Shown here one piece after another: positions 2,012 through 13,498 of a stretch of DNA of 64,000 nt. Every line of letters begins with the position of its first letter. Position 1 is the stretch's first letter. Source of the DNA: Parasphingopyxis sp. CP4 (lineage in GTDB: Bacteria > Pseudomonadota > Alphaproteobacteria > Sphingomonadales > Sphingomonadaceae); the NCBI RefSeq assembly GCF_013378055.1, contig NZ_CP051130.1, positions 248,001-312,000 of the forward strand, given 5' to 3'. The notes under the pieces are model-generated. The model saw only the letters and a program-made list of their open reading frames with translations, had not been told where the DNA came from and searched no databases. The translations under genes and the position numbers were made by a program.

Positions 2012-2881
2012 ATGTCGCAAAAATTTGCTGACCCATTCTTCGAGCTTTATCACCTACCGGACGGTGGCAACGCGCCTCAGCCCATGCCGTCGGCGGAACG
2101 CCTGCAAGTCGCGCTCGGCAAGGAAGGATCACATGGTCTGATCCTGTTTGCACCACCGCAAAGGATTGCGGCGCATGCGCTCGCTGAATCGGGGATCGCC
2201 GAGCGGGAATTGGAGCGCTGGCGATCCGAAGCGAGCCCTGTGCTTGACGCGATCCGTTTGCTCCGGGGCCAGATATTGATTGCTGAAGCACCTGCTTCAG
2301 AACAGGCCTCAACCCGTCTGCACGGCGCGATCAGCGAGAAATTTCCCGGCAAGAATATCCCGAACATTGATGTGCGGTTGCCTGATGCTGCGCCAGTCTG
2401 GGCCGCTGCCGGTTGGGTGAGTGTTTTGCAGTCACCGATAGTCGTGCACATGCTGGGCGAGATTCAGGCGAGAAGCCCGATACGTTACGAAGAAATGCCA
2501 GACATCGGTCAGGCGCTGCAGGATTTGCTGTCCCGTCATCAGGATGAACTCGATCAACTGAAAGCCGAAACATTGGCTAACGACGAGGTGACCGAGCGTG
2601 AGCAAGCTGCCCTGGATCGCTCCAAGGACGCCGTCGCACGGGCGAACATCCTGGCTGACCAGATCGGCCAGCTGGAAGAGAGTTTGCGCGACAGCAGTGC
2701 CAAGGAGGCCGATCTCGAACGGGTTAATGCTGCACTTGCCAAGAAAAGTGAGAAATTGGAGAGCGCTAAAGCAAAACTTGAAGATCGGATCGCACTCTAT
2801 CGTGGATCTGTTTCCTGGCGCATGACCGCGCCGATCCGGGCAGGAAGCCGTCTCTTCAAGCGTTTGGGTGGTGGTCGATGA
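2012..2881 (+). CDS. Coiled-coil protein with SWRxTAP motif, glycan locus
   Basis: The start at 2012 is chosen because GGAG sits seven bases upstream; an earlier in-frame ATG at 1949 lacks such a site. The 289-residue product has an unrecognised N-terminal domain (residues ~1-165) and a long Glu/Lys/Leu-rich coiled coil (~168-265). It ends in the basic tail YRGSVSWRMTAPIRAG. That SWRxTAP(L/I)R tail is one I recall from bacterial glycosyltransferases and sulfotransferase-like proteins, where it follows a coiled coil. No glycosyltransferase motif is visible in the N-terminal part. The stop overlaps the start of the sulfotransferase fusion by 4 bp (ATGA), so the two are translationally coupled and may form a complex through their coiled coils. 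Confidence 0.7.
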   Translation: MSQKFADPFFELYHLPDGGNAPQPMPSAERLQVALGKEGSHGLILFAPPQRIAAHALAESGIAERELERWRSEASPVLDAIRLLRGQILIAEAPASEQASTRLHGAISEKFPGKNIPNIDVRLPDAAPVWAAAGWVSVLQSPIVVHMLGEIQARSPIRYEEMPDIGQALQDLLSRHQDELDQLKAETLANDEVTEREQAALDRSKDAVARANILADQIGQLEESLRDSSAKEADLERVNAALAKKSEKLESAKAKLEDRIALYRGSVSWRMTAPIRAGSRLFKRLGGGR

Positions 2882-4584
2882 AGCTCAGCTCTGTCCTGGA
2901 TTCGATCAGGCCGGAAGATAGTATAATCTCGTTGGGCAGCGCTATGCTGGGCGATCAATATTATCGCCTGAACAATGCCCGGCGCGTACAGATATTCGAA
3001 CCCGATCCGGAACGGGCGGCTCTAATTCAGCAAAAATTCTGGCGGCACGAAAATATGAATGTTGTTTCGGCGGGGGTTCTTCCAGGGTCGAAGACAGCAA
3101 TTTTGAAGCGATACAATCATCAAGCGCTCGATGGATTTGCACCTACAGAGACATTGAAGCGCCGTTTTCCAGGATTGCGCGAAACACAGAAAGTGTCAGT
3201 CACCACCGTGAAGGCAGAGGCTGTTCAATCACGATTGTCGGACGCGCATCGCCAGCGCGATATTCTTGTCATCGACATGCTTGGCAAGGATGTCAGCCTC
3301 CTTGATTATCTGGAACGCGAGGGCCTGTTGAGCCGTATTTCGGACATCTTTGTCCGGACATTGGCCGGCTCGGTCATCGGCGACGATTTTGGCGAAGGGC
3401 CAGCCAAAACTTGGCTGCGTCGAAACCAGTTTGACAGGATTTTCGATTTGGCCGGCGCCACAGATCCGGAGATCAAAATCTTTGCTGCCTTTCGGTTTCC
3501 GCAGCGACAACAGATGGAGCAGCTTTCTATCCAGGTCGGCCAGCACAATGCCGAAAAGGAGAGACTGGAGAATGCGGTCGCGGACCGAATTAATGCCTTT
3601 CGAACCGCTCGCCGTGATTTGACCATGGCGTTGCGATTACAGTTGGTCAGAGAAGCAGATCTCAAGGACTTGCAGAGCCGGTTTTCGCACCTGCGGCAGC
3701 AACTGCAATCCGTTTCGGGAGCCGATCAAGATTCTACTGCAGATAAGGATCAAAAAGGCGCCAAATCGGCCGCCTCTCCATTGGAGACTGGCGAGCCCGT
3801 TCGAACGGTTCATAATCTTGCCTGCGTCGGTGGGACATTATTCAACCGCTGCCTTGGGGCCATGCCCAACACCCAGTTACTGAGCGAAGTCGAGCCATTA
3901 AGTCAGCTTACTCAATCGAATAGGTTTGTTCCGGCCGATCTGATTTCTCTGCTTCGTTTTGGCAGCAGACCAGCCGATGATGCGCTGTCGGTTGAAATAT
4001 TCTTGGCTGGCATGGACGTTCTTTATCGCGACGCATCAAGTCGCGGCTTGCACCTGATATTGAGAGATCATGCCCACAGCATCTTCTGTGATGGACCGGG
4101 CCTGCAATCGCGCCTGCACCTGAGAGCCGTGCTCGAAAAGACTTACGCGCTGCGTTCAATCTTGTTTGTTCGCCATCCATTGGCGTCTTTTTCATCGCTC
4201 CAAGTCAACGAGTGGCTTCATTTCTCACCGCCTACGCTCGATACTTATGCTGAACGCTATCTCGCATTTCTTGATGCGCATAAGGGCGTTGATCAAATGC
4301 GATATGAGGACTTTCTGGAAAATCCGGAAAAAGAAATGCAACGCGCCTGCAAGATCCTGGGCTTGGATTATAATCCGGAGTTCATTGATACATTCTCCGC
4401 CTTCTCCTTGTCCGGAGACAGTGGACGAACAGGCGATGTGATCGCGCCGCGAAAACCAAGGGCGATCACAGAAGAATTGGCGCAAGCCGCCGAGGCAAGT
4501 GCCGCTTATGGGAAGCTTTGCAAAACGCTGCAATATCCGATCATCCAGCCCGATACTGAACTTCAGACGACGAGCCAGGATTAG
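2878..4584 (+). CDS. FkbM-like / coiled-coil / sulfotransferase fusion protein
   Basis: The 568-residue protein appears to have three parts. Residues ~15-205 resemble an FkbM-type methyltransferase fold (IFEPDPERAAL near 39-49 fits the SAM-binding region), although it looks divergent and may be inactive. Residues ~208-280 are a charged coiled coil. Residues ~308-550 are a PAPS-dependent sulfotransferase: NLACVGGTLFNRCL (313-326) fits the 5'-phosphosulfate loop, VRHPLASFSS (431-440) fits the 3'-phosphate site with Arg432, and the late MRYEDFLENPEKE block is typical of the family. Such enzymes transfer sulfate to sugars or lipids in the cytoplasm. It is coupled by a 4-bp overlap to the preceding coiled-coil gene and converges on the APS reductase gene 26 bp away. 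The acceptor is unknown. Confidence 0.75.
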   Translation: MKLSSVLDSIRPEDSIISLGSAMLGDQYYRLNNARRVQIFEPDPERAALIQQKFWRHENMNVVSAGVLPGSKTAILKRYNHQALDGFAPTETLKRRFPGLRETQKVSVTTVKAEAVQSRLSDAHRQRDILVIDMLGKDVSLLDYLEREGLLSRISDIFVRTLAGSVIGDDFGEGPAKTWLRRNQFDRIFDLAGATDPEIKIFAAFRFPQRQQMEQLSIQVGQHNAEKERLENAVADRINAFRTARRDLTMALRLQLVREADLKDLQSRFSHLRQQLQSVSGADQDSTADKDQKGAKSAASPLETGEPVRTVHNLACVGGTLFNRCLGAMPNTQLLSEVEPLSQLTQSNRFVPADLISLLRFGSRPADDALSVEIFLAGMDVLYRDASSRGLHLILRDHAHSIFCDGPGLQSRLHLRAVLEKTYALRSILFVRHPLASFSSLQVNEWLHFSPPTLDTYAERYLAFLDAHKGVDQMRYEDFLENPEKEMQRACKILGLDYNPEFIDTFSAFSLSGDSGRTGDVIAPRKPRAITEELAQAAEASAAYGKLCKTLQYPIIQPDTELQTTSQD

Positions 4585-4610: not shown

Positions 4611-5351
4611 CTAACCGGAAGTCTTTGGGATCCGCGCCACCGCTCCATTCTCGGTAATATGGATCCCGCATTCAGTCTTGTCTTCATCGGCCCAGCGACC
4701 GGCACGATGATCATCGCTGGGTATTGTGCACGGCTCACATCCAATCGACGAATAGCCCATCGCGACGAGAGGATGTTCGAGTAAATTCTCGCTGGAGAGA
4801 AAATCTCGCGTTTGGTCGTGACTCCAGTCTGCCAGCGGATTGACGCGCAACCAGCTTTCCTGGACATCGACATAGTCCATTCCTGCTCGATCAGCGGTTT
4901 GATAGCGTTTGCGACCCGTCAGGACGCAATCATAGTTTCGAAGGACGCCAATCATCGGCAAAGTCTTGCGCAGATAGCAGCACCGGTCGCTATCCACACT
5001 ATGCAGCTTCCCGTCTGGGTCTTCTAAGGCTAGTCGGCGTGCGCTGGGCCGCACACGCACAAGCGTCGACAAGCCCAGCACATCCATCAGGTCATCAACA
5101 TAATCCAGTGTATCGGAAAAATGTTTTCTCGTATCGAGGAAAACGACCGGCGTGGCCGGGTCCTTGTCGGCAATTAGCTTCAGCAGCGCCGCCGCCTCGG
5201 CACCAAATGAGGAGATGACAGCGGGACGACCGGCTACTCCCCCGTTGAGTACCCGGTCCAAAATCTGCGACGCACTAAGCTCAGCAAAGGCAGAGTTGAG
5301 CTGATCCGCCGTCTGCCGAAGCTCCAGAGACTGATTGGTCGCAAAATCCAC
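4611..5351 (-). CDS. cysH: Adenylyl-sulfate (APS) reductase, [4Fe-4S] type
   Basis: This 246-residue member of the CysH family reduces activated sulfate to sulfite with thioredoxin. The catalytic cysteine is in ECGIH (Cys228). Two further cysteine pairs, Cys124-Cys125 (RCCYLRK) and Cys205/Cys208 (CEPC), are the ligands of the [4Fe-4S] cluster found in APS reductases and in dual APS/PAPS enzymes but absent from E. coli-type PAPS reductase. It therefore most likely acts on APS. It is the second gene of a minus-strand pair, 15 bp downstream of sqdB, which uses sulfite. A dedicated supply of sulfite for sulfosugar synthesis is inferred from this; general cysteine synthesis is the alternative. Confidence 0.92.
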   Translation of the reverse strand: MDFATNQSLELRQTADQLNSAFAELSASQILDRVLNGGVAGRPAVISSFGAEAAALLKLIADKDPATPVVFLDTRKHFSDTLDYVDDLMDVLGLSTLVRVRPSARRLALEDPDGKLHSVDSDRCCYLRKTLPMIGVLRNYDCVLTGRKRYQTADRAGMDYVDVQESWLRVNPLADWSHDQTRDFLSSENLLEHPLVAMGYSSIGCEPCTIPSDDHRAGRWADEDKTECGIHITENGAVARIPKTSG

Positions 5352-5366
5352 AAAATCCTCGTCAGA

Positions 5367-6524
5367 TTACCGCCACTTGGAGACGCACGGAATTTTCGAT
5401 TGATCGCAGCGATCTGCGTATTTTTCTGCGATTTCCTTCACTTCATCAAGAAGTCCATCGTCCAGGGTGATCGGATCCAGGCCCAGGCCCAGGAAACGAT
5501 CATTGGCGACATGCAGTTCGTTTTCCGCAGCTTCGTTACGCGGATTTTCGACATTCTCAATTTTCGCTCCGGTCATGTCGGCGATTTTCACAGCCAAATC
5601 CCGGACCCGGTGCGTCTCAGTCATCTGGTTCAGAATATGGACGCGCTCGCCATGTTGTGGCGGGTTGGTAATGGCGAGCTCAATGCACCGGCACGTATCC
5701 TGAATATGGATAAAGGCGCGCGTTTGGCCGCCGGTACCATGCACGGTCAGCGGATAATCAAGGGCCGCTTGCATCACAAATCGGTTAAGCACCGTTCCAT
5801 AATCGCCATCATAGTCAAACCGGTTGATCAGCCGATCGTCGAGCTTGGTCTCTTCGGTCTGCGTACCCCAGACGATACCCTGGTGAAGGTCGGTGACCCG
5901 GATGCCGTCATTCTTGTTGTAATAGGCGAAGAACAGCTGGTCCTGGGTCTTGGTCAGGTGGTAGATTGAACCCGGATTGACCGGATACAGGATTTCCTGC
6001 TCAACCATGCCGTTATCGGTGTCCACCTGAACGGTCAGATAACCCTCAGGAATCTTCATTCCGGCCGTACCGTATCCATAGACACCCATGGTACCCAGAT
6101 GAACGATATGCGCATTGCTCTTGGCTTCAACCACGGCCGCTAACAGGTTGTTTGTCGCGCTGAGGTTATTGTCGACCGTATAGCGTTTGTGAAAGCTCGA
6201 CTTCATCGAATATGGCGCCGCGCGCTGTTCGGCGAAGTGAATGATCACATCGGGTTCTTCCTGTTCGATCAGGCTTAACAACCGGTGATAGTTTTCCGAA
6301 ATGTCGAAATCGTGAAACGCGATCTTCTTGCCCGTCACTTCTTCCCAGGCTGCGAGGCGTTGATCGACGGGCGCGATTGGGGTGAGGGAATCGACGCCCA
6401 GTTCAACGTCAATCTTTCTGCGCGACAGATTATCGATGATGGTAACGTCATAATCACGCCGGGAGAGGTAGAGGCTGGTTGGCCATCCACAGAATCCATC
6501 GCCACCCAAAACAAAAATCTTCAT
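5367..6524 (-). CDS. sqdB: UDP-sulfoquinovose synthase
   Basis: The 385-residue protein makes UDP-6-sulfoquinovose from UDP-glucose and sulfite, the head-group donor of sulfoquinovosyl diacylglycerol and of some sulfonated glycans. It resembles plant SQD1 closely: [12 protein letters not shown] (7-18) matches the unusual NAD-binding loop of SQD1, GTMGVYG (144-150) supplies the catalytic Thr145, and YHLTK (188-192) supplies Tyr188 and Lys192 with the His189 also seen in SQD1. ATDLHQG-like and [16 protein letters not shown] blocks are further SQD1 signatures. It is transcribed with the APS reductase gene downstream. No SqdX/SqdD-type glycosyltransferase is visible here, so the final product, lipid or polysaccharide, remains open. 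Confidence 0.93.
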
Positions 6525-9615: not shown

Positions 9616-11406
9616 CTAGATTAGCCCCCGTGCATACCATGGGTCTTTGGACTGAATCGAGGCCGCATCGCCATGCTCGCTCTCGCTGATCAACCGTTCA
9701 AAGGCATCATTTTGTGACAGGAAGATACGACCGGTCAGCTCGCTCAGGAGATTGGAATGCTCGAGCCTGTCCGTCACCGGCCCCTTCACTTCCGACAGGT
9801 GCAGCGCAAGGCCGGCATCTGCCAGTCGATGATTGATAGCCTCCAACGCCTCCAGCCCGGAGGCATCAATGGCGTTTACCGCCGAACACATCAAAATCAC
9901 GTGACGCACTTCGCTGTTTGCGGCGACTTGCTCAAGCACGAACTCTTCGAGCCAGCGCGCATTCAAGAAGCTCAGAGATTCATCGATCCGAACGGTCAAT
10001 ATATAGGGCGAGGTGATCACATCGTGCCGGTCTATGTTCCGGAAATGCTCGGTCGATGGGACCCGCCCGACAATTGCAGCATGCGGCCGTGACGACCGCC
10101 ACAGGTGGAGGATCAGGCTCAGCGCAACGCCCACGATCACGCCCGTTTCGATCCCGGCGAACAGCGTTAGGGCGATCGTGCCGATAATCGCCGCGAAATC
10201 GCTCTTTGAGTAGCGCCATAGCTCTGCAGGCTTGCGCAAATCGACCAGCCCGAGAACCGCGACGATGATAGTGGCCGACAAGGTCGCGATTGGAAGGTGG
10301 AACAGCAGCGGCGTCAGGAAAACAGTGGCAAGCGCAATGCCGATTGCCGTGTACGCGCCGGCAGCAGGTGTTTCCGCACCCGCATCGAAATTGACAACTG
10401 ATCGTGCGAACCCGCCGGTGACCGGATAGCCGCCTGACACAGCTGATGCGATGTTCGCGCTGCCAAGGCCGATCAGCTCCTGGTCTGGGTCAATCCGCTG
10501 CCTGCGTTTCGCGGCAAGGGTCTGGGCCACCGATACAGATTCCACAAAGCCGATGATGGAAATCAACAGCGCTCCAACGAATAGTTGCGACCACAGGTCT
10601 GGGTTGAGGGTTGGTATTGCAACGGGCGGCAGCCCCGACGGGATGACGCCCACCGTCGCCACACCCCGATCGCCGAGACCGAAAACCGCCACAGCTACGG
10701 TTGTGGCCAGGACCGCGAAAACAGGCCCGGCCTTTGCGATCAGATCTGCGGGGCGGTCCGCCAAACCGAACCGCATTAACAGGGGTTTCAAGCCCAGTTT
10801 CGCCCAGAACAGAAATGCCGTCGCTGATGCACCGATGGCTAGTGTTGGCCAATGAAGCGCGCCCAAGTTGGCGGCGAGGCTCGTCACAATCTCGAGCAGG
10901 TTATCTCCTCCACCCTCAATGCCCATGATGTGCTTCAGCTGGCTTGCGGCAATGATTATGCCGCTTGCGGTGATGAAGCCCGAGATCACAGGATGCGAGA
11001 GCAGATTGGCAAGAAAACCGAGCCGGAACAGTCCCATAACCAGCAAAATGCCGCCGGATAACACCGCAAGGGCTATAGCTGCGCCGAGATATTCCGCGGA
11101 TCCGGCTGCTGCGATATTCCCGGCGGCCGCAGCCGTCATCAGCGACACCACAGCGACCGGCCCGACAGCCAAAGTCCGGCTCGTTCCGAATAATGCATAG
11201 GCAAGAAGCGGCAAGATTGAGGCGTATAGACCGACTATCGGCGGAAGCCCGGCGAGCATGGCATAGGCTAATGACTGCGGGATGAGCATGATGGTGACGA
11301 TAGCCGCGGCCATCAGGTCGTTTGTCAGCACGGTGCTGTTATAATCGCGCGCCCAGCTCAGGATCGGAAGAAAGCGGCTTGCTGCCTGGAATCGTTTTTC
11401 AGCCAT
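9616..11406 (-). CDS. SulP-family sulfate/anion permease with STAS domain
   Basis: A 596-residue inner-membrane anion transporter. The N-terminal part has the SulP signature (YASILPLLAYALFGTSRTLA) and multiple hydrophobic helices up to about residue 430. A cytoplasmic STAS domain fills the last ~140 residues. The ATG at 11406 is chosen because AGGGAG precedes it; a longer frame upstream reads as non-coding. It is the last gene of the bigR operon, 22 bp downstream of the second YeeE/YedE half. SulP members move sulfate, bicarbonate or other anions. In this setting uptake or export of sulfate or sulfite produced by persulfide oxidation is likely; the usual bigR operon carries a TauE/SafE-type sulfite exporter instead. 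Confidence 0.92.
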   Translation of the reverse strand: MAEKRFQAASRFLPILSWARDYNSTVLTNDLMAAAIVTIMLIPQSLAYAMLAGLPPIVGLYASILPLLAYALFGTSRTLAVGPVAVVSLMTAAAAGNIAAAGSAEYLGAAIALAVLSGGILLVMGLFRLGFLANLLSHPVISGFITASGIIIAASQLKHIMGIEGGGDNLLEIVTSLAANLGALHWPTLAIGASATAFLFWAKLGLKPLLMRFGLADRPADLIAKAGPVFAVLATTVAVAVFGLGDRGVATVGVIPSGLPPVAIPTLNPDLWSQLFVGALLISIIGFVESVSVAQTLAAKRRQRIDPDQELIGLGSANIASAVSGGYPVTGGFARSVVNFDAGAETPAAGAYTAIGIALATVFLTPLLFHLPIATLSATIIVAVLGLVDLRKPAELWRYSKSDFAAIIGTIALTLFAGIETGVIVGVALSLILHLWRSSRPHAAIVGRVPSTEHFRNIDRHDVITSPYILTVRIDESLSFLNARWLEEFVLEQVAANSEVRHVILMCSAVNAIDASGLEALEAINHRLADAGLALHLSEVKGPVTDRLEHSNLLSELTGRIFLSQNDAFERLISESEHGDAASIQSKDPWYARGLI

Positions 11407-11428
11407 CGGCGTCTTGCGCTCCCTTCGA

Positions 11429-11854
11429 CTAGGCAGCGGAAATTGGTCGATCGACCAACCGGTACAGCACCATCCCAAGGATCATGCTTGCTATAAAGAG
11501 CCCTGCCGATGCCGGCGCGACGACCAATGCGCCTATCGCCGGTCCAGGACACAGGCCGGCCAAGCCCCAACCCATGCCAAACAGCGCGGCCCCACCTATC
11601 AGCTTGCCGTCAATAAGACGGGTGCCGGGCAGATGAAATTCGCCAGACGCCAGCGGTGCTGCCATCCGGGAGCGGACTATCCATGCACCGGCCATCATAA
11701 TGACAGCGCCGCCCATCACAAAGGCCAGAGTTGGATCCCAGGTGCCGAATATGTCGAGAAACCCGCGCACTCGCGCCGGATCCATCATGCCCGACAAGGC
11801 CAGTCCGATGCCAAAGAGCAATCCCGAAAAGAGCGCCGTGAGACGAATAGCCAT
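11429..11854 (-). CDS. YeeE/YedE-type transporter, second half (DUF6691-like)
   Basis: A 141-residue membrane protein with four hydrophobic segments and the conserved GLAGLCPGPAIGAL block (about residues 101-114), whose cysteine is the one used by YeeE/TsuA-type thiosulfate transporters. Full-length TsuA is about twice this size and internally duplicated, so this gene and its upstream neighbour probably form the two halves of one channel. Its ATG overlaps the stop of that neighbour by 1 bp. Role inferred from the BigR regulons I know: moving thiosulfate or a related sulfur species across the inner membrane during sulfide stress. Confidence 0.88.
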   Translation of the reverse strand: MAIRLTALFSGLLFGIGLALSGMMDPARVRGFLDIFGTWDPTLAFVMGGAVIMMAGAWIVRSRMAAPLASGEFHLPGTRLIDGKLIGGAALFGMGWGLAGLCPGPAIGALVVAPASAGLFIASMILGMVLYRLVDRPISAA

Positions 11855-12300
11855 TACCAGCCCCAGCCCAGCTGATTAGCGAGCGCTACCGTCACCATGC
11901 CCGATGCAATGAAAGTTGCGGTCGCGATCAACGAGCGGCGGGACAAGCGCGACATGCCGCAGACGCCATGGCCGCTGGTACAACCGCTTCCCAGACGCGT
12001 GCCAAAACCGACCAACAGACCGCCCAGTATCAGCACCAGCGGTGACGAGGGGAAGCGCGCCTCGATTGAGCCCGTGATCGCCTGAAAGGTCAGCGCACCG
12101 AGAATGATGCCAACAACAAATAGCCATGCAATCGATATCGGAGCGCCGCCGCGCGCCAGCATCATTGCTCTTGCTGCCATCCCGCTGACACCGGCAATCC
12201 GGCCAGCTGCCAGCAGCATCACGGCTGCGCCAAGCCCGATCATCACGCCGCCTAACAACCCTTCCAGGGGCATTGCGTGAGGAAAGCCTGGCAGCGTCAC
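11854..12300 (-). CDS. YeeE/YedE-type sulfur transporter, first half
   Basis: A 148-residue membrane protein with a GTG start that overlaps the stop of blh (GTGA). The hallmark [19 protein letters not shown] (about residues 110-128) contains the paired cysteines conserved in the YeeE/YedE family and thought to relay thiosulfate or sulfane sulfur. Hydrophobic segments flank it. It pairs with the next gene, which supplies the complementary half of the transporter. The tight overlaps on both sides show co-translation within the bigR operon. Confidence 0.9.
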
Positions 12301-13163
12301 AGCGCGTTGACCGGTACTTTTATGTAGCGGACACCATTGTCTTCGGGAGGCGGGAATTCGCCGCCGCGCATATTGACCTGTACCGACGGAATAATGAGGC
12401 TGGGAACCGCCAAAGTGGCATCACGCGCATTTCGCATGGCCACGAAATCACTCTCGCTGACATCGGCATGCACATGGATGTTGGCACGCTTTTGCTCGCC
12501 AATCGTGGATTCCCAGCGATAGTCGCTCCGCCCATCCGGCAGATAGTCATGGTTCAGGAAAACCCGGGTCTCGTCCGGCAGTTCAAAAATCCTCTGGATC
12601 GATTGAAAGAGCAGGTGAGCATCGCCCCCCGGAAAGTCGCACCGTGCCGTACCATAATCAGGCATGAATAATGTATCTCCGACAAATGCGGCATCGCCGA
12701 TCAGGTGCGTCATGCACGCCGGAGTATGGCCGGGCGTATGCATCGCCCGCGCATCGATCGACCCGACAGAATAGGTTTCGCCATCGGAGAAAAGGTGATC
12801 GAACTGGCTGCCATCGGTGCGGAAATCAGCTTCGACATTGAAGAGCTTCCCGAAGATTTCCTGAACTTGGGTGATATGCTCACCGATAGCGGTTTTACCC
12901 CCCAGTTCGGATTTCAGGTAATGCGCGGCGGACAGATGGTCGGCATGGACATGGGTGTCGATGATCCACTCTACGTCGAGGCCGGTGGCGCGAACATGGG
13001 CCGCCAATTTGTTGGCCGAAACAGTTGCTGTGTGCCCAGACGCTGCATCATATTCGAGCAAGGAGTCGATGATCGCGCATTTGCCCGTTGCGGGATCGGC
13101 AACCACATAGCTGGCATTATTGGTAGCTTCGTCAAAAAAGGCGGTGATCTCAGCGTGTGTCAT
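12297..13163 (-). CDS. blh: Persulfide dioxygenase-like metallo-hydrolase (Blh)
   Basis: A 288-residue metallo-beta-lactamase-fold protein of the ETHE1/Blh group, which oxidises glutathione persulfide to sulfite. The metal-binding motif is HVHADH (DTHVHADHLSAA), with further histidines in MHTPGHTPACM and NHDYLPDG. Such proteins bind a single iron and need O2 and GSH. The start overlaps the stop of bigR (ATGA), which is the arrangement known from Xylella and Agrobacterium BigR operons. The sulfite it makes may be exported by the downstream transporters or drawn on by sulfite-using enzymes such as SqdB. It is cytoplasmic, with no signal peptide. Confidence 0.9.
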   Translation of the reverse strand: MTHAEITAFFDEATNNASYVVADPATGKCAIIDSLLEYDAASGHTATVSANKLAAHVRATGLDVEWIIDTHVHADHLSAAHYLKSELGGKTAIGEHITQVQEIFGKLFNVEADFRTDGSQFDHLFSDGETYSVGSIDARAMHTPGHTPACMTHLIGDAAFVGDTLFMPDYGTARCDFPGGDAHLLFQSIQRIFELPDETRVFLNHDYLPDGRSDYRWESTIGEQKRANIHVHADVSESDFVAMRNARDATLAVPSLIIPSVQVNMRGGEFPPPEDNGVRYIKVPVNAL

Positions 13164-13498
13164 AGTCCGGCTCCCGCCTCTGATGCCGCTGACTCACTTC
13201 CTTCGGGCTGGCAAAATGTTTCGTAGAGGAAGTGCATGATCTTCCTGACACCGTCATCCGCGATAGAATATTTTATGGCTTGTCCTTCGCGCCGGGTGGT
13301 TACCGCGCCTTCGCGCCGTAGAATTGAAAGTTGCTGTGACATAGCCGGCGCCTTCATGTCCAATGCCTCGCCGAGCTCGCCTGCCGACATTTCCCCCTCA
13401 ATCAGATGGCACAAAGCCATCAGTCTTTCGCGATGGGACAACATCTTCAGAACCCCGCTGACGCGCACGGCAGTCTGTTTCATATCCTGTATTTGCAT
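13160..13498 (-). CDS. bigR: ArsR-family sulfide/persulfide sensor, BigR type
   Basis: A 112-residue winged-helix repressor. The recognition helix region reads MKAPAMSQQLSILRREG. Cys30 and Cys96 are separated by 66 residues, exactly as Cys42 and Cys108 are in Xylella BigR, where persulfides form a disulfide or tetrasulfide link and release DNA. The start is uncertain: the first five codons (from 13498) lie inside the left arm of the operator, and a second ATG at 13483 would give 107 residues; neither has a clear ribosome-binding site, so a leaderless message is possible. It heads the five-gene operon and should repress it until sulfide appears. Confidence 0.93.
   Translation of the reverse strand: MQIQDMKQTAVRVSGVLKMLSHRERLMALCHLIEGEMSAGELGEALDMKAPAMSQQLSILRREGAVTTRREGQAIKYSIADDGVRKIMHFLYETFCQPEGSESAASEAGAGL

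Follow-up and report, generated by a model that had tools for sequence, protein, structure and literature searches.

The accessible part of PMC4388408 describes uridine diphosphate (UDP)-sulfoquinovose synthases as adding sulfite to a 5,6-ene derived from UDP-glucose; it also gives the plant enzyme SQD1 a low activity in vitro and a reported complex with ferredoxin-glutamate synthase, and has Agl3 accumulate or leak the 5,6-ene when sulfite is low. For these reasons the route by which sulfite, which is reactive and contested by sulfite reductase, reaches the synthase has so far been an open point. In plants it comes from a plastid adenosine 5'-phosphosulfate (APS) reductase, an enzyme separate from SQD1, and sulfite reductase draws on the same sulfite (PMC8264797, accessible part). 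Agl3 of Sulfolobus acidocaldarius, whose sequence was not compared here, is likewise a UDP-sulfoquinovose synthase, serving glycoconjugates, and the accessible part of PMC4388408 mentions no reductase partner for it. In the sqdBDC sulfolipid operon (Rhodobacter sphaeroides; here Sinorhizobium meliloti, Loktanella and Marinovum) sqdB is followed by sqdD and sqdC. Here we describe a 64,000-nucleotide stretch of the Parasphingopyxis sp. CP4 genome (contig NZ_CP051130.1, positions 248,001 to 312,000; "the window" hereafter), in which sqdB is followed instead by cysH, a gene of the APS/3'-phosphoadenosine 5'-phosphosulfate (PAPS) reductase family.

We read the pair as a dedicated sulfite-to-sulfosugar module, in which the APS/PAPS reductase supplies sulfite to the UDP-sulfoquinovose synthase, and give this reading a probability of about 0.7. 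The argument is built on the gene pair with its intact motifs, its duplication in a genome that has a separate cysteine-pathway cysH, its recurrence elsewhere, and two genes in which both enzymes share a single reading frame.

The window SqdB matches Arabidopsis SQD1 (1qrr/1i24) over its full length (E ~1e-98) and keeps T145, Y188 and K192 (the Thr, Tyr-x3-Lys triad), the combination by which we assign it as a UDP-sulfoquinovose synthase. It also keeps H96, R101 and M146, which are, by motif and without an alignment to Agl3, the counterparts of Agl3 residues at which alanine substitution abolished activity; the Agl3 T144 mutant stayed active (PMC4388408, accessible part). The protein falls in the same clade as the SqdBs of sqdBDC operons, which carry out the same reaction, and is 63% identical to that of S. 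meliloti. It scores 333 bits with the NCBIfam equivalog model NF041015 (cut-off 575), close to the SqdBs of S. meliloti (332) and Loktanella (328); one SqdB of a second, SQD1-like branch gave 447. Since all SqdBs tested miss this cut-off, the shortfall says nothing against the window SqdB in particular, and the notion that it is a separate enzyme was dropped, the sqdBDC proteins missing the threshold equally.

The downstream protein, encoded like SqdB on the minus strand, matches PF01507 (119 bits) and exceeds the cut-off of NCBIfam NF002537 (213.8 against 154 bits); together with the ECG[IL]H motif, present as ECGIH with C228, this places it among the APS/PAPS reductases. Its CC and CxxC cysteines (C124 and C125 in CC..RK, C205 and C208 in GC..CT) are those of the iron-sulfur (Fe-S)-type APS reductases. 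The first-pass annotation had described an SQD1-like sqdB with Thr145, Tyr188 and Lys192, followed 15 bp on by a CysH-family reductase with four iron-sulfur cysteines, and this description held in its coordinates, gap and residues. The three cysteine motifs occur in 12 of the 13 CysHs that are linked or fused to SqdB, and the remaining one is truncated by a contig end; they do not set the window CysH apart, because the cysteine-pathway CysH of the same genome carries them as well. Model scores name the protein phosphoadenylyl-sulfate reductase, and its 131 bits with the APS-reductase model TIGR02055 fall below the cut-off of 235.3, so that the sequence does not settle whether APS or PAPS is the preferred substrate.

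The window is part of a single 2.96-Mb contig, and PF01507 gave four matches in the genome: the window CysH, a second CysH (L003), a third (L002/L009) and one CysD-type protein. L003 lies directly behind a second sqdB, again after a 15-bp gap and 2.3 Mb further along the contig; the two SqdB copies are 89% identical and the two linked CysHs 63%. The third cysH stands in line with a nitrite/sulfite-reductase-type gene and with DUF934 and uroporphyrinogen methyltransferase genes (the latter two named by eye; the layout is annotated in L200). This assimilatory CysH belongs to the same family as the linked one and is only 38% identical to it. The first-pass annotation had made its proposal depend on another cysH being present in the genome, and here it is, beside a sulfite-reductase-type gene. 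The CysD-type gene adjoins a CysN-APS kinase fusion, so the genes for sulfate activation are present too.

Nor is the adjacency peculiar to this strain. A contig scan with the SqdB alignment gave 556 loci, of which the 80 best-scoring were kept, a sample biased towards the window's kin, and 74 of these have at least 1 kb of flank on both sides. CysH lies within 250 bp of sqdB at eight of them, in tandem, divergent and convergent arrangements, compared with about 0.1 adjacency expected by chance by our own estimate (~2 cysH in ~3,500 genes). The eight come from a Parasphingopyxis metagenome-assembled genome (L064), Parvularculaceae (L070, L074), Afifellaceae (L078), unplaced alphaproteobacteria (L081, L086) and the two fusions described below (L088, L093). 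A further one of the 80, L143 from Sulfobacillus harzensis, has CysH at a distance of 3.5 kb and was left out of the linked set. When the window CysH alone served as query, the contig scan gave no relatives. Among 18 plasmid records with SqdB, two of the nine examined have CysH, both from Rhodobacterales: sqdB and cysH are 20 bp apart on a Pelagovum pacificum plasmid, and a plasmid of Rhodobacteraceae M382 has the order sqdB-sulfotransferase-cysH. Within the order, 246 genomes searched with SqdB at E 1e-20 yielded 13 loci in 11 genomes, nine of the window's clade and four of the second, SQD1-like branch (~40% identical), and CysH lies within 250 bp at three of the 13 (the two copies of this genome and one in G013). 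In G087 a second cysH is found 2.5 kb from an sqdB of the SQD1-like branch. In both G013 and G087 another cysH adjoins a cysI-type gene. Of the eight genomes that contain the named linked loci, seven have a further cysH; a candidate in the eighth (G630) was removed, as it overlaps the contig-edge piece of the linked gene (97% over 159 bases).

In two records CysH and SqdB are encoded as one uninterrupted frame, with CysH in front: 707 codons in L088 (a Nocardioidaceae bin) and 680 in L093 (a Proteobacteria bin). NCBIfam recognises both domains in each. The fused CysH of L088 passes TIGR02055 (240 bits) and that of L093 is just under it (231). Both genomes have another CysH, the one in G633 (L164) being without the Fe-S cysteines. 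As they read, two natural fusions of this kind are strong evidence for a dedicated sulfite supply.

In the proposed scheme ATP sulfurylase (CysD and CysN-C, encoded elsewhere in the genome) would make APS/PAPS, which would be reduced to sulfite by the CysH paralogue linked to sqdB, as opposed to that of the cysteine pathway. SqdB, co-expressed with it, would then add the sulfite to the unsaturated keto-sugar nucleotide derived from UDP-glucose, giving UDP-sulfoquinovose, and the sugar would end in a surface glycan. With a CysH of its own, SqdB would draw on local sulfite and so would neither leak its 5,6-ene product nor have to compete with sulfite reductase. The first-pass annotation had suggested a dedicated, perhaps channelled, supply. 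Dedication is supported by the other cysH, the recurrence and the two fusions; channelling between CysH and SqdB stays at plausible, the structure model of a fusion being too poor for use (mean predicted local distance difference test score 52, predicted template modelling score 0.50) and both fusions having an internal ATG.

Several observations weigh against this reading, here and in the following paragraphs on the fate of the sugar, the fusions and the CysH tree. Most of the examined SqdB loci of the window's clade have no linked reductase: 72 of the 80 named loci are without cysH within 250 bp of sqdB. In the class survey SqdB was found in 31 of 385 genomes at E 1e-30, and 28 of 29 further loci were fetched (four with less than 1 kb on one side); 17 are of the window's clade, and CysH is in the fetched flanks of none of these. 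The phylum survey (398 genomes, 30 loci fetched) showed CysH only at the second copy of the present genome, which leaves 26 of 27 loci of the window's clade without adjacent cysH, five of them already covered by the earlier surveys. Moreover, five of the 17 class-survey genomes with a window-clade SqdB (G304, G307, G503, G520, G552) gave no CysH-type PF01507 match, two of them yielding only a match of CysD length; sulfite from elsewhere can therefore suffice. In G463 of the same survey cysD and cysN lie ~7 kb from sqdB. The link between sqdB and cysH is thus recurrent but optional.

The SqdB clade itself is a highly conserved enzyme with a wide spread, part of which rests on metagenome bins. 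Cyanobacterial records (L124, L125, L136, L139, L141) hold members 70-73% identical, and records titled Verrucomicrobiia, Prauserella, Solirubrobacterales, Trueperaceae and Sulfobacillus (L065, L071, L109, L115, L143) members 70-78% identical. On a Rhodococcus qingshengii plasmid (L149), sqdB is accompanied by genes for a glycosyltransferase, an alkyl-sulfatase-like protein and a SulP transporter and by one hypothetical gene.

Table 1. Positions of the sqdB-cysH pair and of neighbouring features in the window
Feature	Position	Strand	Remark
sqdB, UDP-sulfoquinovose synthase, 385 amino acids	5367-6524	minus	clade including the SqdB of sqdBDC operons
cysH-family APS/PAPS reductase, 246 amino acids, GTG start	4611-5351	minus	four Fe-S-type cysteines and ECGIH; sqdB-linked paralogue
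Gap between the sqdB and cysH frames	5352-5366	minus	15 bp
568-amino-acid protein, weak FkbM-methyltransferase-like N-terminus and weak Sulfotransfer_3 C-terminus	2878-4584	plus	both matches below cut-off; convergent with cysH
GDP-mannose 4,6-dehydratase (gmd)	794-1915	plus	neighbouring polysaccharide region
SulP-family permease with STAS domain	9616-11478	minus	context; membership in the module not established
Blh-like persulfide-dioxygenase-type protein	12297-13163	minus	dioxygenase part of the model only, 413.5 bits against a cut-off of 625; context

Judging by the genes around the pairs, a surface glycan is the most likely destination of the sugar. Within ~25 kb of the window pair are gmd and genes for GDP-fucose synthase, WecB and a nucleotide-sugar dehydrogenase, a glycosyltransferase gene of family 2 or 4 (GT2/GT4), a gene weakly resembling sulfotransferases and a GSCFA gene. 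Gene order is the same at the second pair and in L064: sqdB-cysH comes first, then a convergent GT4 gene (68% identity between the two loci), a gene with a methyltransferase domain, for which blastp showed no likeness between the loci, and finally a GSCFA gene (60% identity). Genes of the GSCFA family whose ends are TPR-like were located at 8293-10035 of L005, ~15 kb from the window pair, and at 5318-6967 of L007, ~4 kb from the second pair. The neighbours of the L093 fusion include a tyrosine phosphatase and a Wzc-type kinase, an initiating sugar transferase and a flippase, as well as genes for a sulfotransferase, for an FkbM methyltransferase and for a product that matches glycosyltransferases weakly. 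In G122, a genome of the same genus, the immediate neighbour of sqdB is a TetR-like gene (identified by eye), 79% identical to the one after the GSCFA gene in L064; cysH, glycosyltransferase, methyltransferase and GSCFA genes were not found in the 4.2-kb stretch around this sqdB (1.5 kb fetched there), and the only CysH found in the genome is the cysteine-pathway one. With cysH and the glycan block both missing at this sqdB, cysH seems to travel with the glycan block.

Also near the window pair, the minus-strand genes at 9616-13498 encode an ArsR-type regulator, the Blh-like protein, two small membrane proteins (one Pfam Sulf_transp) and the SulP permease. This group looks like a persulfide-oxidation operon, which could be another source of sulfite ~3-7 kb from the pair.

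The alternative destination is sulfolipid: the module would feed sulfoquinovosyl diacylglycerol (SQDG), with an unlinked SqdX-like GT4 as the transferase. We regard this as rather unlikely, for all that the window SqdB sits in the clade of the sqdBDC proteins and that SQDG is lost on sqdB deletion in R. sphaeroides (PMC11346425, accessible part; that SqdB sequence was not compared here). Two GT4 genes of the genome align at 33-34% with a protein labelled SqdX-like by eye, a weak label (best 33%, 141 bits), and G013 has a SqdD-like gene ~30 kb from its linked pair; these two findings make the glycan destination less certain. Two of the sqdB-adjacent GT4s are similarly close to the SqdX-like protein (32-35%). 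Against sulfolipid, SqdD did not turn up in this genome at E 1e-6 (positive controls: two sqdBDC genomes), sqdD and sqdC had no match in the 80 named loci at E 1e-15, neither gene follows sqdB in the window, and glycan-type neighbours occur at both pairs of this genome and in L064, L093, L145 and L146. The earlier suggestion of a sulfonated polysaccharide rather than a sulfolipid is thus favoured by the context and by the missing SqdD, and tempered by the two SqdX-like GT4s.

A second doubt concerns the fusions, which might be metagenome assembly artefacts or might not be translated as one chain, leaving only ordinary gene neighbours. Both do come from metagenome bins, the phylum survey gave no further fusion among the rows listed, and in both a purine-rich, ribosome-site-like stretch precedes the internal SqdB ATG, where translation of a separate SqdB could begin, so that a separate SqdB may also be made from these genes. 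Still, we consider this explanation improbable, as the two frames come from separate bins whose titles name two phyla, their linkers differ, and the identity between them is 61% (CysH) and 82% (SqdB), and a whole-genome search likewise reports both frames open, without stops. Weak CysH-fragment matches (E 0.016 and 0.4) lie just upstream of sqdB in a close relative, Nocardioides immobilis (L126, 7755-7910), and are perhaps a decayed remnant or relative of the fusion. A bolder and decidedly speculative form of the dedicated-module reading takes the fused protein as a bifunctional APS reductase-UDP-sulfoquinovose synthase that would pass sulfite, or even the S-sulfocysteine of the CysH domain, straight to the unsaturated sugar nucleotide of SqdB, bypassing the free pool; adjacent pairs such as that of the window would be the two-chain version of the same complex, feeding a sulfonated surface polysaccharide.

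In the CysH tree the window CysH, L003, L064, L078 and the two plasmid copies (L145, L146) form one group (support 99/90), L070, L074, L081 and L086 a second (98/87), G013 and G087 join neither, and the fused CysHs form a pair of their own (100/100), far from the other linked CysHs. This larger tree is the first 37-row tree minus two duplicate rows plus 21 rows; a grouping of all alphaproteobacterial linked CysHs in the first tree was given up, being split in the larger one, where the linked CysHs are not one clade. A single clade of the unfused ones is not rejected (p-AU 0.135, approximately unbiased test). The topology indicates at least two origins of the CysH-SqdB association, one for the fusions and one for the rest, and more than two are likely. 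An alternative in which the linked cysH serves general sulfur assimilation, as a spare copy or one for particular conditions, and neighbours sqdB by chance, is improbable: linked and cysteine-pathway CysHs do share their motifs and most examined SqdB loci of the window's clade lack an adjacent cysH, but the pairing recurs in different lineages and arrangements and in two fusions, sqdB and cysH were duplicated as a pair in this genome, cysH is missing together with the glycan block at the sqdB of G122, and the cysD, cysN and cysI of this genome, used as tblastn queries, had no match in the 80 named loci at E 1e-4, G463 of the class survey being the case with cysD and cysN near sqdB.

A full-text literature search, with most subscription papers and all bioRxiv preprints outside its scope, found no description of an sqdB-cysH pair or of a CysH-SqdB fusion, and the papers that join UDP-sulfoquinovose, APS reductase and sulfite are, by title, all on plants. 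With the natural fusion and the recurring pairs, direct tests of whether sulfite is supplied locally or channelled become feasible in a simple setting. A further implication is that sulfoquinovose may occur in bacterial surface glycans, which would be a source of the sugar that has perhaps been overlooked.
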